A stretch of 64,000 nt of DNA from Flavimobilis marinus. GTDB lineage: Bacteria > Actinomycetota > Actinomycetes > Actinomycetales > Cellulomonadaceae. The translations under genes and the position numbers were made by a program. Positions 12,781 through 35,122 of this stretch are shown here, one piece after another. The notes beneath the pieces are model-generated. The model did not search any database. It was not told the origin of the DNA and saw only the letters and a list, made by a program, of their open reading frames with translations. The stretch's first letter is position 1; every line of letters starts with the position of its first letter. The stretch spans positions 186,001-250,000 of the forward strand of contig NZ_FONZ01000001.1 in assembly GCF_900113055.1 (NCBI RefSeq). The letters run 5' to 3'.

Positions 12781-12842
12781 GCTGAGTGCGTGTTTTTGGC
12801 GGTGTGAACGCGCGAGACGACCGCCAAAATCACGCACTCAGC
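12781..12842. repeat. Long intergenic hairpin A (23-bp arms, one mismatch)
   Basis: Arms at 12781-12803 and 12820-12842 are complementary over 23 bp except for one T/T mismatch at arm position 13, around a 16-base spacer. The hairpin sits between convergent genes and could act as a bidirectional terminator. It is compositionally unlike ordinary GC hairpins: the stem contains GAGTGCGTG and TTTTGGCGG. Confidence 0.75.
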
Positions 12843-30445: not shown

Positions 30446-31876
30446 GTGGACCTGATGACCCTCGGACGACGGGTCCGGCACTTCCGCACGGCGCGCGGCC
30501 TGACCCTCGACGACCTGTCCGCCGCGACCGGCACCGCCCCCAGCCAGCTGTCGCTGATCGAGAACGGCAAGCGCGAGCCGCGCATCTCGCTGCTCGGCGC
30601 GATCGCGACCGCGCTCGACGTCGCCGTCAACGACCTGCTGTCCGAGGAGCCGCCATCGCGACGCGCCGCCCTGGAGATCGAGCTCGACCGAGCCCAGCGC
30701 TCCGCCCACTTCACCAAGCTCGGCCTCCCGCAGGTCAAGGCCAGCCAGAAGCTGCCGCAGCCCGTGCTCGAGAACCTCGTCGGGCTGCACCGTGAGCTCG
30801 CCCGGCGCGCCCGGGAGGCCATCGCCACGCCCGAGGAGGCGCGGCGCGCCAACACCCAGCTCCGGCTAGCCATGCAGGCCCGCAACAACTACCTGCCCGA
30901 GATCGAGGCGCTCGGCGAGGAGATGGCGCGCAAGGCCGGCTACACCGTCGGCGCGCTGACCCACCACACGGTCGCGCGGATGGCCGAGCAGCTCGGCTTC
31001 ACGCTCCTGCACGTCGACGACCTCCCGCACTCGACCCGGACCGTCACCGACCTCGCCCACGGCCGGATCTATCTCCCGCCCGCCTCGATCCCCGGCGGGC
31101 ACGGCCTGCGGTCCCTCGCGCTGCAGGCGATCGGGCACCGCGTCCTCGAGCACACCCGCCCGACGTCGTACGCTGACTTCCTGCGCCAGCGCCTCGAGAT
31201 CAACTACTTCGCCGCGGCGTGCCTGATCCCGCGCAGCGCGGCCGTCGGCTGGCTCGAGGCCCGCAAGAAGGAGAAGGACCTCGCGGTCGAGGACTTCCGG
31301 GACGCGTTCGGCGTGACCCACGAGGCCGCCGCCCAGCGGTTCACCAACCTGGCCACCGAGCACCTCGGCATCCGGGTGCACTTCATGCGCGTGGGCGACG
31401 ACGGCGCGCTGTACCGCGGGTACGAGAACGACGGGCTGACCTTCCCCGCGGACATCACCGGCGCGATCGAAGGCCAGTCCGTGTGCCGGCGGTGGGCGGC
31501 GCGCACCGCCTTCCTGCGTCGGGACCGGGCCACCGAGTTCTACCAGTACACCGACAACCCGGCCGGGACCTACTGGTGCTCGACGCAGACCGGTACGACG
31601 GCGTCGGGCGACTTCTCGATCAGCGTCGGGGTGCCGTTCGCCGACGTCAAGTGGTTCCGCGGGCGGGAGACCGACCGGCGCTTGACGTCGACCTGCCCCG
31701 ACGAGGCATGCTGCCACCGGCCGCCCAGCACGCTCGCCGAGCGGTGGGTCGGCGCCTCGTGGCCGAGCGCGCTGATGCACCAGCACGTGCTCTCCGCCCT
31801 GCCGGCCGGCAGGTTCCCCGGTGTGGACGACACCGAGGTCTACGAGTTCCTGGAGAAGCACGCGCCGCGCGCATGA
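30446..31876 (+). CDS. ramB: RamB/PrpR-like XRE regulator of carbon metabolism
   Basis: A 476-residue regulator with an N-terminal XRE helix-turn-helix ([38 protein letters not shown] region, residues about 6-45), a central IrrE/ImmA-like domain lacking an intact HExxH, and a C-terminal domain with conserved Cys ([20 protein letters not shown]). This is the plan of RamB and PrpR, which sense acyl-CoA and control acetate and propionate use. Control of the divergent pckG is inferred from the shared 111-bp promoter region. The GTG at 30446 has AGGAG upstream; an ATG three codons later is an alternative. Confidence 0.82.
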
Positions 31877-31978
31877 GTCCGGGCCGCCGGGCCGCGGGGC
31901 CGGGCGGACCGAGCGGCGCCTCGCCCGGTCCGTCCCGAGCGCCCCGATATGGCCTGGCCCGGCGACGTCGTCGGCCAC

Positions 31979-31984
31979 TAGCAT
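31979..31984 (+). promoter_or_regulatory. -10 hexamer before lipoprotein gene
   Basis: TAGCAT ends seven bases before an in-frame GTG at 31992, which would give a leaderless, 15-residue-longer form of the lipoprotein. The ATG at 32037 with a G-rich Shine-Dalgarno would then be used on the same mRNA with a leader. Confidence 0.4.
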
Positions 31985-32036
31985 GTGGCTCGTGCGCCGC
32001 CTGGCGCGCATCGGCAGGGGTGCAGGGGGAAGCGGG

Positions 32037-32474
32037 ATGCTGCGCGCACAGACTCGGGCTGCGCGGACGGCCATGGTCGCCGTCACGGTGCTGGGCTCGC
32101 TCGCGCTCGGTGCCTGCCAGTCGGAGTCCGGCTGCGCGGGCCGGACGACGCCGGAGGAGACCCTCGCCGGGTTCCTGCGCGCCGCCGTCGGCAACGACGC
32201 CCCCCGAGCGCGCGGCTACGCCGACGTCACGTACGTCCTCGAGGACGAGACCGTGAGCGGGCTGTCCCAGGCGCTGTCCCAGGCGCTGTCCGGCGTCTCG
32301 GTGGACGCGCTCGAGCTCACCGCGGAGCAGCACGGCGAGCTCTTCTACTTCGCGGTCGCCGACGGTGAGGGCACCCCGGTGGGGACGTTCTCCGTCCGGC
32401 GCAGCGACCGCTGCCACGGCGTCCTGTGGGCGGACGTCTCGTCCCGCACGACCACGGTGACCCGCCCCCGCTAG
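32037..32474 (+). CDS. Putative lipoprotein, unknown function
   Basis: A 145-residue exported protein. The N-terminal MLRAQTRAARTAMVAVTV is followed by the lipobox LALGAC, with the lipidated Cys at residue 27. The mature part is short, has two further Cys residues that could form a disulfide (GCAG and RCHG), and shows the phrase TPEETLAGFLRAAVGND, suggestive of a small alpha/beta fold such as NTF2-like domains. No family assigned. The ATG at 32037 has GGGGGAAG upstream; a GTG at 31992 is possible if the mRNA is leaderless. It is followed by hairpin E1. Confidence 0.65.
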   Translation: MLRAQTRAARTAMVAVTVLGSLALGACQSESGCAGRTTPEETLAGFLRAAVGNDAPRARGYADVTYVLEDETVSGLSQALSQALSGVSVDALELTAEQHGELFYFAVADGEGTPVGTFSVRRSDRCHGVLWADVSSRTTTVTRPR

Positions 32475-32495
32475 CCGCCCGCCGCGCCCAGCCCC

Positions 32496-32546
32496 AAGTT
32501 GGGAGCACTTCTGCACGCCACCACCGTGCAGAAGTGCTTCGAAGTT
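32496..32546. repeat. Intergenic hairpin E1, upstream copy
   Basis: Left arm 32496-32517 and right arm 32525-32546 pair through a perfect 14-bp core (AGCACTTCTGCACG with its complement) plus weaker outer pairs, around CCACCAC. The 22-base left arm is repeated exactly at 33519-33540 on the other side of the DUF559-type gene. Confidence 0.8.
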
Positions 32547-32598
32547 CGGTCTGGTGCGTACATCCACAGGGGATGGTCGTGGAAGGGGGCCTCCGGCA

Positions 32599-32610
32599 GG
32601 GTGGGGGGGG
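32599..32610 (+). promoter_or_regulatory. G tract at start codon of DUF559-type gene
   Basis: GGGTGGGGGGGG, with the run of G running into the GTG start codon at 32610. It provides the only Shine-Dalgarno-like sequence. A G8 homopolymer here could vary in length and change translation initiation. Confidence 0.45.
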
Positions 32611-33518
32611 TGCGAGGGCCCGAGGATCCGCAGTGGCTACCTCCGCCTGCTCGGTCCCAGGTTCGCGTGTTCACCGTGCGACAGGCACTCGACGCCGGCG
32701 CCTCGCGGGGCCAGGTCGCTCGCCGGCTCGCGGACGGGACCTGGCGGCGGACCGTCGGGCGCGGGATCCGCCTGGCGGGCGACGAGCCTGACCCGCTCGT
32801 GCTCGTCGAGAGCGCCATGCTCACGTGGCCGGATGCGGTCGTGATCGGCCAGGCGGCGGCCGCGTTCCATCGAGCGCCGGTGCTGCTGCCGTCGGTCGTC
32901 GATGTCTGGCGTCCGCACGGCGGGGCTCGGACGATGCGGGGTTTGGTGCCGCACCGGTTCCAGCTCCCCGACGGCGCTCGTCGACCGACAAGTCTTTGGT
33001 CCGTGGCCCAGCCGGGCTTCGCGTTCGTGGACGCGCTGCGGCGGATGCCGATCGACGATGCGCGAGACCTGTTCGCCTGGCTGGTCACCCACCGGCATCT
33101 GAGTCGGGACGACCTTGCTCGCTGGATTCACGAGCTACGTGGTCAGCACGGGGCCTGTCAGCTCCGGCAGCTGTTGGCAGAGTCGGCCTCTGGGGCGCTG
33201 AGCGTTGCGGAGCGGCGCGAGCACCAGATGCTGCGGGCTGCGCGGATCCGGGGCTGGCGGGCCAATGTGGCTGTGCGCGACGAGCGGGGGATCATCGGCG
33301 TCGTCGACGTCCTCTTCGAGGCAGAGCGTGTGGTGATCGAGGTTGACGGTCGTCGTGCCCACGCCGACAGGTTCCAGGAGGACCGGACCCGGCAGAACCG
33401 CCTCGTCGTCGCGGGTTATCTGGTCCTACGGCACACCTGGACCGACCTGACACGGCGTGCTCCCACGCTCCTCGACGATCTGCGCCGAGTGCTCGCCGCG
33501 CGCCGCCCCCGCAGATAG
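32610..33518 (+). CDS. AbiEi-like N-terminus plus DUF559 nuclease-like domain
   Basis: A 302-residue protein. The N-terminal 40-50 residues (VFTVRQALDAGASRGQVARRLADGTW) are a winged-helix like that of AbiEi-type antitoxins. The C-terminal domain has the DUF559/Vsr-like PD-(D/E)xK pattern: GVVDVLFEAERVVIEVDG followed by RFQEDRTRQNRLVVAGYLVLR. Such proteins are common orphans in actinobacteria; whether they cut DNA is unknown. No AbiEii toxin gene is adjacent. The GTG at 32610 is preferred over 32499, which would translate hairpin E1. The gene is bracketed by two copies of hairpin E and two G tracts. Codon use looks slightly less GC-biased than in its neighbours. Confidence 0.75.
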   Translation: MRGPEDPQWLPPPARSQVRVFTVRQALDAGASRGQVARRLADGTWRRTVGRGIRLAGDEPDPLVLVESAMLTWPDAVVIGQAAAAFHRAPVLLPSVVDVWRPHGGARTMRGLVPHRFQLPDGARRPTSLWSVAQPGFAFVDALRRMPIDDARDLFAWLVTHRHLSRDDLARWIHELRGQHGACQLRQLLAESASGALSVAERREHQMLRAARIRGWRANVAVRDERGIIGVVDVLFEAERVVIEVDGRRAHADRFQEDRTRQNRLVVAGYLVLRHTWTDLTRRAPTLLDDLRRVLAARRPRR

Positions 33519-33567
33519 AAGTTGGGAGCACTTCTGCACGGAGATCGCGTGCAAAAGTGCTCCCAAC
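33519..33567. repeat. Intergenic hairpin E2, downstream copy
   Basis: Arms 33521-33540 and 33548-33567 are complementary over 20 bp except for one mismatch, with a 7-base loop. It begins at the stop codon of the DUF559-type gene and lies before the convergent glpK end, so it can serve as a bidirectional terminator. Confidence 0.8.
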
Positions 33568-33584
33568 CTGGACCCCGGCCCCCC

Positions 33585-33603
33585 GGGGGGGTGGGGGGGG
33601 CGG
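33585..33603 (+). repeat. G-rich tract after hairpin E2
   Basis: Runs of seven, eight (plus C) and three G residues separated by single bases follow CCCCCC at 33579-33584. The tract could form a G-quadruplex on the plus strand. Its core repeats the GGGTGGGGGGGG found at the other side of the DUF559-type gene. Confidence 0.5.
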
Positions 33604-33604
33604 G

Positions 33605-35122
33605 TCAGCTCACGTCGTCGTCGACCCAGTCGAGGGTCTTCGTGACGGCCTTCTTCCACAGGCGGTACTGGCGCTCGCGCTCGTCGGACTCCATCGACGG
33701 GCTCCACCGCTTGCCCTCCCGCCAGTTCGCGGTGACGTCCGCCTCGCCGTCCCAGAAGCCGACGGCGATGCCGGCCGCGTAGGCCGCGCCGAGCGCCGTG
33801 GTCTCGGCGACCTCCGGGCGGATGACGTCGACGTCGAGGATGTCCGCCTGGAACTGCATGAGCAGCTCGTTGGCGACCATCCCGCCGTCGACGCGCAGCT
33901 CGGTGAGGTCCACGCCCGAGTCCGCGTTCATCGCGTCCAGGACCTCGCGGGTCTGGAACGCCGTGGCCTCGAGCGCCGCGCGCGCGATGTGGTTCTTGTT
34001 GACGAACCGCGTGAGCCCGACGAGCGCGCCGCGGGCGTCGGAACGCCAGTGCGGGGCGAACAGCCCGGAGAACGCGGGCACGAAGTACGCGCCGCCGTTG
34101 TCCTCGACCTTGTTGGCGTAGTACTCGATGTCCGGGGCCTCCTCGAACAGCCCGAGGTTGTCGCGGAGCCACTGCACGAGCGAGCCCGTCACGGCGATCG
34201 AGCCCTCGAGCGCGTACACCTGTGGTGCGTCGCCGATCTTGTAGCAGACCGTCGTCAGCAGGCCGTTCTTGCTCGCGACCGGCTCGGTGCCGGTGTTCAG
34301 GAGCATGAAGTTGCCCGTGCCGTAGGTGTTCTTGGCCGAACCCTTCTCGAAGCACGCCTGGCCGAACGTCGCCGCCTGCTGGTCGCCGAGGATGCCAGCG
34401 ATCGGCACGTCGGGGACCATGCCGCGCTTGCGGCCGTGCCCGTAGACCTCGGACGACGAGCGGATCTCCGGGAGCATCGACATCGGGATGCGCATGTCTG
34501 CGGCGATGTCCTCGTTCCAGGTGAGCGTGTCGATGTTCATCAGCATGGTGCGGGAGGCGTTGGTGACGTCGGTGATGTGCACGCCGCCGTCGGTGCCGCC
34601 CGTCATGTTCCACAGCACCCAGGTGTCGGTGTTGCCGAACAGCAGGTCGCCGCGCTCGGCGGCCTCACGGGCGCCCTCGACGTTGTCGAGGATCCACGTC
34701 ACCTTGGGGCCGGAGAAGTAGGTCGCGAGCGGCAGGCCGACGCGGGACTTGTACTTCTCGAGGCCCTCGTCGCCCGCGAGCTCGTCGACGATCTTCTGGG
34801 TGCGGGTGTCCTGCCAGACGATCGCGTTGTAGACGGGCTTGCCGGTGGTCTTGTCCCACACGACGGCCGTCTCGCGCTGGTTGGTGATGCCGACGGCGGC
34901 AAGGTCGGCGTGCGTGAGGTTGCCGCGGGTGAGCGCGAGGCCGACAGCCTCGCGGACGTTGTTCCAGATCTGCTCCGGGTTGTGCTCGACCCACCCGGCG
35001 CGCGGGAAGATCTGGTCGTGCTCGAGCTGGCCCACCGAGTGGATGGTGCCCTCGTGCGTGAACACGATGGCGCGCGAGCTCGTGGTGCCCTGGTCGATCG
35101 CGAGGACGTACTTGGTGCTCAT
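33605..35122 (-). CDS. glpK: Glycerol kinase
   Basis: A 505-residue FGGY-family kinase that makes sn-glycerol 3-phosphate. The N-terminus has the phosphate-1 loop [23 protein letters not shown]-like [26 protein letters not shown] (quoted by its ends VYGHGRK and GILGDQQAA) and the signature [17 protein letters not shown] follow (quoted as GGMVANELL). AAGGAA precedes the ATG. It is the last gene of a glpD-glpF-glpK unit on the minus strand, 40 bp after glpF. Confidence 0.95.

Follow-up and report, generated by a model that had tools for sequence, protein, structure and literature searches.

Why does a single gene with a nuclease-like domain lie between two copies of one palindrome? The window analysed here is a stretch of 64,000 nucleotides on contig C7 of the 2.9 Mb genome of Flavimobilis marinus (G000). 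A first-pass annotation of its letters had pointed to such a gene and had likened the arrangement to REP/RAYT pairs or small mobile cassettes. We describe the repeats, the protein and their relatives in other genomes, and weigh four explanations of the arrangement.

Results

The gene and its two palindromes

The 22-base sequence AAGTTGGGAGCACTTCTGCACG occurs in exact copies at 32496-32517 and 33519-33540 of the window. Each copy is the left arm of a 51-base imperfect palindrome, R, whose inverted arm lies at 32525-32546 (3 mismatches) or at 33548-33569 (2 mismatches). The upstream palindrome R1 (32496-32546, no strand assigned) has two arms of 22 bases, the second with the 3 mismatches, around a centre of 7 bases. 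The downstream palindrome R2 (33519-33569, no strand assigned) has its first base directly after the stop codon of the gene. None of 100 shuffled windows had a match at up to 3 mismatches. The annotated repeat is confirmed, as is its place as the left arm of an imperfect palindrome. G tracts had been described downstream of both hairpins, and they were found there. On the plus strand, GGGTGGGGGGGG is present at 32599-32610, just 5′ of the likely start codon, and again at 33589-33600, inside a G-rich tract (33585-33600, plus strand) between R2 and the 3′ end of a convergent gene, glpK as judged by eye. The distance from hairpin to G tract differs between the two. A search of 31800-34000 against Rfam gave nothing near the gathering score.

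The gene itself (32610-33518, plus strand) encodes an AbiEi-like protein with a DUF559 nuclease-like domain, 302 aa long if the GTG at 32610 is the start codon. A longer open frame begins at 32499. The G tract differs in length in G003, a sister species, so this longer frame is probably noncoding and the gene probably starts at about 32610. When the G run at 32603-32610 is compared with L037 and L129, both its length and its sequence differ between the sister species. With a G run before the likely start codon, phase variation of translation is possible.

The encoded protein

The annotation had named the families AbiEi and DUF559, and both names stand. The C-terminal part of the protein matches Pfam DUF559 (E 8.5e-8, above the Pfam cut-off), and a C-terminal nuclease-like domain is what it has in common with DUF559 / REase_MTES_1575 proteins. 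PADLOC AbiEi profiles match residues 14-175 (E 3e-7), and Pfam AbiEi_4 gives a weak match below the cut-off (E 9e-4). Pfam scans of this protein and 10 relatives returned only DUF559, MTES_1575 and AbiEi models and a weak DUF2726 match; no HUH (Y1) transposase domain was found in them. Four proteins searched against NCBIfam had no match. E201, D233 and E244 are invariant across 20 diverse family members. Profile matches of the nuclease domain in the PDB were 3hrl, an endonuclease-like protein, and 3r3p, entitled “Mobile intron protein” (E 6e-5). We take 3r3p to be I-Bth0305I, presumably a Vsr-like EDxHD homing endonuclease. An AlphaFold2 model built on a four-sequence alignment had a mean pLDDT of 50 and was set aside.

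In IMG/VR no relative of the window protein was found. Among plasmid and phage records, distant relatives of a second protein of the class, from the flgE site described below, were found in only 3 and 1, respectively. No AbiEii-like partner was noticed when the neighbours were read by eye; the stop codon is followed by R2 and then by the convergent gene. In nine pairs of family genes dN/dS was 0.11-0.38, so the protein is under purifying selection. Copies broken by frameshifts or stops were seen at L081/L122 (Sanguibacter hominis), L135 and L137. A matched repeat can still be detected beside those at L122 and L135, but not beside L137.

Bracketing by matched repeats

We compared the two sides of the gene at 100 loci, 60 of the family and 40 further ones, chosen by hand from the best matches listed with high scores and long contigs favoured. 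The 60 family loci comprised 25 of the close clade and 35 broader DUF559 relatives, at 20 kb each. The test scored a matched repeat and did not require palindromy; shifted windows, random cross pairs and neighbouring genes served as controls. At a score of at least 20, a matched repeat brackets 71 of the 100 family genes and 11 of 422 neighbouring genes. At a score of at least 30 the counts are 43/100 and 3/422. The Fisher p values are ∼1e-51 and ∼2e-31 respectively, for loci that include orthologues and are not all independent. A traceback version of the test, with slightly different alignments, gave 73 bracketed loci instead of 71. No matched repeat reached the threshold at 29 of the 100.

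Among the 60 loci, upstream and downstream repeats matched at a score of at least 20 in 44, compared with 9 of 360 shifted windows. Of the 40 further loci, 29 are bracketed, compared with 5/240 shifted windows; three genomes contributed 34 of these loci. These three genomes (G279, G314 and G335) belong to one genus and have at least 13, 14 and 10 protein matches; 25 of the 34 genes fetched from them are bracketed, each by its own different repeat. Across a sample of the phylum, at least 40 of 119 genomes have such proteins. Thirty loci were fetched from it and 27 were usable, since L186, L190 and L193 were cut short and left out. Fifteen of the 27 are bracketed, compared with 1 of 150 random cross pairs, and 12 have no matched repeat at the threshold; L197, shorter than expected, was counted as a miss, and some loci are shared with the sample of paralogue-rich genomes. 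A scan of the genome contigs gave 4 loci. Of the G000 paralogues, C3:138866 and C3:405634 (score 44.5) are bracketed and C3:413911 (14.5) and C2:272014 are not. Other family genes in the genus have nearby hairpins of other sequence. The feature in the window is one case of a general bracketing and no local oddity.

Most of the repeats are palindromic. A strongly palindromic repeat is present in at least one copy at 58 of the 73 loci bracketed in the traceback version and in both copies at 37, compared with 8 of 584 shifted segments; 15 of the 73 have no clear palindrome. R spans about 45-75 bases, is in most cases an imperfect dyad made of two half-sites in inverted orientation, each about 20 bases or longer, and is private to its gene. 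The downstream R begins at most 20 bases past the stop codon at 51 of the 73 loci, and between the end of the upstream R and the first position of the protein match lie 38-541 bases (median 130). Around the 60 family loci, the density of strong palindromes is 0.04-0.10 per kb at 2-9 kb from the gene; in the first 150 bp downstream it is 1.6 per kb for the close clade and 3.05 per kb for the broader relatives. R is often doubled in tandem on one side, with the copies tens of bases apart in a manner similar to BIMEs, as at L116, L118, L120, L135, L155, L181, L189 and L192.

R is private to each gene

We compared R between pairs of the 73 bracketed loci. For proteins less than 65% identical, R is shared in 0 of 2,564 non-syntenic pairs and in 0 of 31 syntenic pairs; pairs without a 180-residue alignment were entered as “no hit”. 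For syntenic proteins above 65% identity, R is shared in 7 of 7. L170 and L171 also share R, a pair that the filter counted as non-syntenic although it is orthologous, and L211 and L233, at 67% protein identity, do not. Another 24 of the 2,628 pairs have intermediate synteny and fall in neither class. The pair comparison therefore shows that both R of one locus stay alike, yet R differs fully between loci, even at one site. R queries against the other fetched regions gave few further copies.

Unit boundaries, inversions and gene-less sites

In a flagellar cluster, between genes named flgE and flbD by eye, both G000 and G003 have such a unit (L170 9213-10334 and L171). Between these two genomes the flanks are mostly 85-99% identical, with one 100-base bin at 70%, and the unit is 54-83% identical. 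At a second site the gene bins are 53-75% identical and the far left and right flanks 86-100%; here the low stretch continues leftward past the gene for about 1.4 kb. G002 and G005 have about 1.9 kb between matches of the flgE/flbD flanks.

Of 44 syntenic pairs, 16 have the gene inverted relative to conserved flanks. These inversions lie at four different sites, three of which include members with no detectable R pair. The site that holds a unit in G205 and G206 has the same flanks in G028 and no gene, with one R of that family where the filled sites have two; this may be a loss. G203 has no gene and one palindrome of other sequence at the site of the L152 unit. The lone palindrome of G203 (L248 1155-1236) was seen where six related genomes are about 1.1 kb longer between the same flanks. 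The gene is listed in five of these relatives, the R pair was checked in three, and the lone palindrome is possibly the solo R of a lost unit.

The glpK locus had been singled out earlier as the place where a fixed gene would speak against mobility. The unit is present there only in G000 and G003; the other four genomes of the genus have no listed protein match near glpK. Many sites are common to several genera, so movement is not frequent.

Synonymous divergence

We compared dS of the enclosed genes with that of their neighbours. For the window gene, dS between G000 and G003 is 0.021, below all 11 neighbours (0.118-0.710, median 0.255), and with the longer frame it is 0.093, still below all of them. 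For the flgE-site gene of the same two genomes dS is 0.72-0.77, above all 14 neighbours (0.140-0.365, median 0.236). With a dS of 0.92, a third unit, L117/L115, falls among its 13 neighbours, whose values vary widely (0.023-1.328). L160/L164 (0.054-0.071) is below its 10 neighbours (0.126-0.455), whereas L116/L118 and L134/L136 are above theirs (6 and 9 neighbours). L149/L152 equals the median of its neighbours; L152/L166 falls inside the neighbour range and L159/L169 at the top of it. Such a spread fits a mixture in which some units were exchanged recently and others are old, divergent alleles.

Dispersed copies of R

A strict pattern of the window R matched 2 of 221 genomes of the taxonomic family. 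G000 has 3 copies, two of them at the unit. G003, in which the orthologous unit is present with both R, has 6, one of them at the unit. No copy was found in the other 219 genomes, and the reversed-pattern control gave 0. Degenerate copies are also present on C8 and C7 of G000. The dispersed copies are intergenic and lie beside unrelated genes as judged by eye, and none of those in G003 is less than 50 kb from the four listed matches of the protein there. Enrichment of copies next to DUF559 genes had been proposed as a test. None of the strict dispersed copies, five in G003 and one in G000, adjoins such a gene; R is therefore not confined to DUF559 genes. Four R sites of G003 were checked against their G000 counterparts, and this R is present in none of the four. 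One counterpart is without it, one has an unrelated palindrome and another a different, weak palindrome; the fourth is rearranged and has an additional 708 bases. The unrelated palindrome is single-copy and was rejected as a member of the R family.

Two other families are also dispersed. Copies of the CGATAGC family, unit included, number 49 in G004, 38 in G001 and 0 in each of the remaining four genomes of this genus. G004 and G001 are the genomes with an orthologous gene of this family, 88% identical. For the flgE-site family, 8 copies were found in G000 and 3 in G003 (unit included), all of 56 bases, compared with 0 in the remaining four. Reversed-pattern controls gave 0 for both families. 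All 11 flgE-site copies have a C-rich left shoulder and a G-rich right shoulder. A degenerate copy of this family, with a G-rich right shoulder, was also observed in the window at 12783-12840. The L160 family is not dispersed and was found only at its own site among the 9 genomes searched. Thus three of the four R families tested are dispersed, with up to 49 copies.

The half-sites of the flgE-site family differ between species. Among strict matches, those of G003 all read GAGTGCACGA and those of G000 all read GAGTGC(G/A)TGA. At the orthologous dispersed site L276/L281, whose flanks are 90% identical, both arms differ in the same species-specific way. Co-evolution of the sites with a species-specific protein is what would give this pattern.

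A different view is that the repeats are common bidirectional terminators or insulators on both sides of a gene that was acquired; gene conversion would keep them alike, and they would have no connection with the protein. Several dispersed copies of the flgE-site family do lie 3′ of a stop codon with a convergent gene beyond, as judged by eye. G004 has only a plain hairpin beside glpK, and the single-copy palindrome of G000 at a G003 R site also agrees with such a role. We consider this improbable. Terminators of this kind would not be expected to bracket the family genes and so few of their neighbours (11/422), to track the identity of the enclosed gene, or to be restricted, as in the three dispersed families, to genomes with that gene. 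One copy moreover lies upstream of the gene start, and the copies listed keep one length although the search patterns allowed many.

Dyad or hairpin

All listed copies of the CGATAGC family have 43 bases, although gaps of 5-40 were allowed. We looked for covariation in 48 of the 49 G004 copies (one was an exact duplicate), with the outer arms fixed by the search pattern. A base-paired hairpin was rejected for this family, as the inner pairs were hardly above the shuffled expectation in the 48 distinct copies. Because inner covariation is weak and the length is constant despite the gaps allowed, we describe R as a dyad. In this family R looks more like a fixed-length dyad, a predicted binding site, than like a hairpin held by base pairing. 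Support for pairing was also weak when the two R of a locus were compared: 23 of the 100 loci were usable and gave 14 compensatory pairs (4.7 expected), 22 other double changes and 118 one-sided changes.

These results bear on control at the RNA level, in which the hairpins would act in the transcript and the nuclease domain would bind or process its own mRNA. The R copies do flank the reading frame, and in the accessible text of PMC11879112 a Vsr-like protein, FASTKD4, acts on mRNA stability. This explanation is nevertheless very improbable in our judgement. The inner stems of the best-sampled family hardly covary, the dispersed copies adjoin unrelated genes (by eye), and R pairs occur in clearly inverted orientation (5 loci) as well as in clearly direct orientation (16 loci), with 50 loci ambiguous.

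Discussion

Comparison with known systems

The closest anatomy is that of REPtrons and TIRtrons, in which REP or TIR repeats flank RAYT/TIRYT tyrosine transposase genes, according to the available part of PMC3733652. As described there, palindromes or inverted repeats stand on both sides of the gene and one may overlap its 3′ end; different genes have different repeats, only some repeats are dispersed, and copies often lie between convergent genes. All this is similar to the units described here. In contrast, our protein is AbiEi-like with a DUF559 domain, a HUH transposase domain was not found, and by inspection R1 and R2 of the window have no GTAG or CGTC tag. Since the anatomy is that of REPtrons and TIRtrons and the enzyme is another, we regard the unit as a REPtron-like cassette whose nuclease is of the AbiEi/DUF559 kind. 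The original comparison with mobile cassettes and REP/RAYT pairs proved useful and is partly supported, in that bracketing is general, the borders are discrete and one gene-less site retains one R. Two points have to be revised: R is not confined to DUF559 genes, and in the best-sampled dispersed family it looks more like a fixed-length dyad than a base-paired hairpin.

The nuclease domain suggests a second comparison. I-Bth0305I, taken to be 3r3p, has a profile-related domain and, in the portion of PMC3943268 available, dimerises on a target of nearly 60 bp, a length similar to that of R. Unlike I-Bth0305I, the unit is free-standing, intergenic and not located in an intron. Unlike a homing site, R is doubled by the gene and not interrupted by it, if R is indeed the recognition site.

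A third comparison is with AbiE type IV toxin-antitoxin systems. In the accessible text of PMC7319586, AbiEi and Rv2827c bind paired inverted repeats of 23 bp, with gaps of 3 or 13 bp, in their own promoters and do not cross-bind. Our units share the AbiEi-type part and, next to the gene, paired inverted repeats close to 23 bp long. The fused nuclease-like domain, the second dyad near the stop codon and the copies elsewhere in the genome set our units apart; read by eye, the neighbours showed no AbiEii-like partner.

Titles and opening lines of abstracts on DUF559 showed no link to flanking palindromes, and the sole co-mention of a hairpin there concerns SPOUT methyltransferases. Those on REP/RAYT in Actinobacteria, AbiEi inverted repeats and actinobacterial palindromic repeats, which included few subscription papers and no bioRxiv preprints, do not join these genes to palindromes.

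Autoregulation as a possible alternative

The AbiE comparison raises the question of whether R only regulates its gene. R would then be an AbiEi-type operator whose upstream copy represses the gene and whose downstream copy assists through looping or ends transcription, and the protein would be an immobile defence nuclease; an arms race would account for the fast change of the protein. The match to PADLOC AbiEi profiles, the dN/dS values, the distance of the upstream R from the start of the protein match and the operator geometry, which for AbiEi and Rv2827c is close to that of our dyads and goes with the lack of cross-binding (PMC7319586, as far as accessible), all agree with it. Autoregulation through the upstream R is likely and may be the whole story. 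As the sole explanation, however, we think it rather unlikely. Autoregulation alone leaves unexplained the second R at or near the stop codon, the dozens of copies elsewhere in some genomes, the inversion of the gene at conserved sites and the one R at a gene-less site.

A proposed nuclease cassette with its own dyad

The explanation that we somewhat favour is a selfish REPtron-like cassette of the form R-gene-R, belonging to a widespread class, whose AbiEi/nuclease protein recognises its own dyad. Bracketing, a private R sequence, a discrete unit, inversion, a gene-less site with one R, allele turnover and dispersed copies were all observed and find a place in such a cassette. Binding and cutting of R, and the protein as the driver of the unit, are what we infer.

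Under the cassette explanation, a pair of protein molecules would recognise both half-sites of R, in the manner of AbiEi antitoxins at their operators. The nuclease would cut at R and the R copies would then recombine. As a result the cassette could spread between alleles, invert, be replaced by another, or be lost and leave a solo R. In some genomes R copies alone would have spread elsewhere, as REPs did. Recombination between two palindromes would suffice for inversion and for a solo R; the nuclease would account for the spread.

A broader proposal can be made more tentatively, and we hold it to be a little less than even. AbiEi-DUF559 genes may be selfish invertible cassettes throughout the phylum, in which a dimeric nuclease of the DUF559 kind, and not an HUH or DDE enzyme, recognises and propagates the private dyad that brackets its gene and seeds REP-like families. 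One genome may carry ten or more such nuclease-palindrome pairs with mutually exclusive specificities.

If the cassette explanation is true, it would give a physical target, open to testing, to DUF559 / AbiEi-REase proteins, a common family of unknown function. It would also add a second, unrelated enzyme class that is paired with its own dispersed palindromes, which bears on the origin of REP-like repeats. The units would then amount to a naturally occurring set of nucleases and their sites, each pair with its own specificity and accessible to direct assay.
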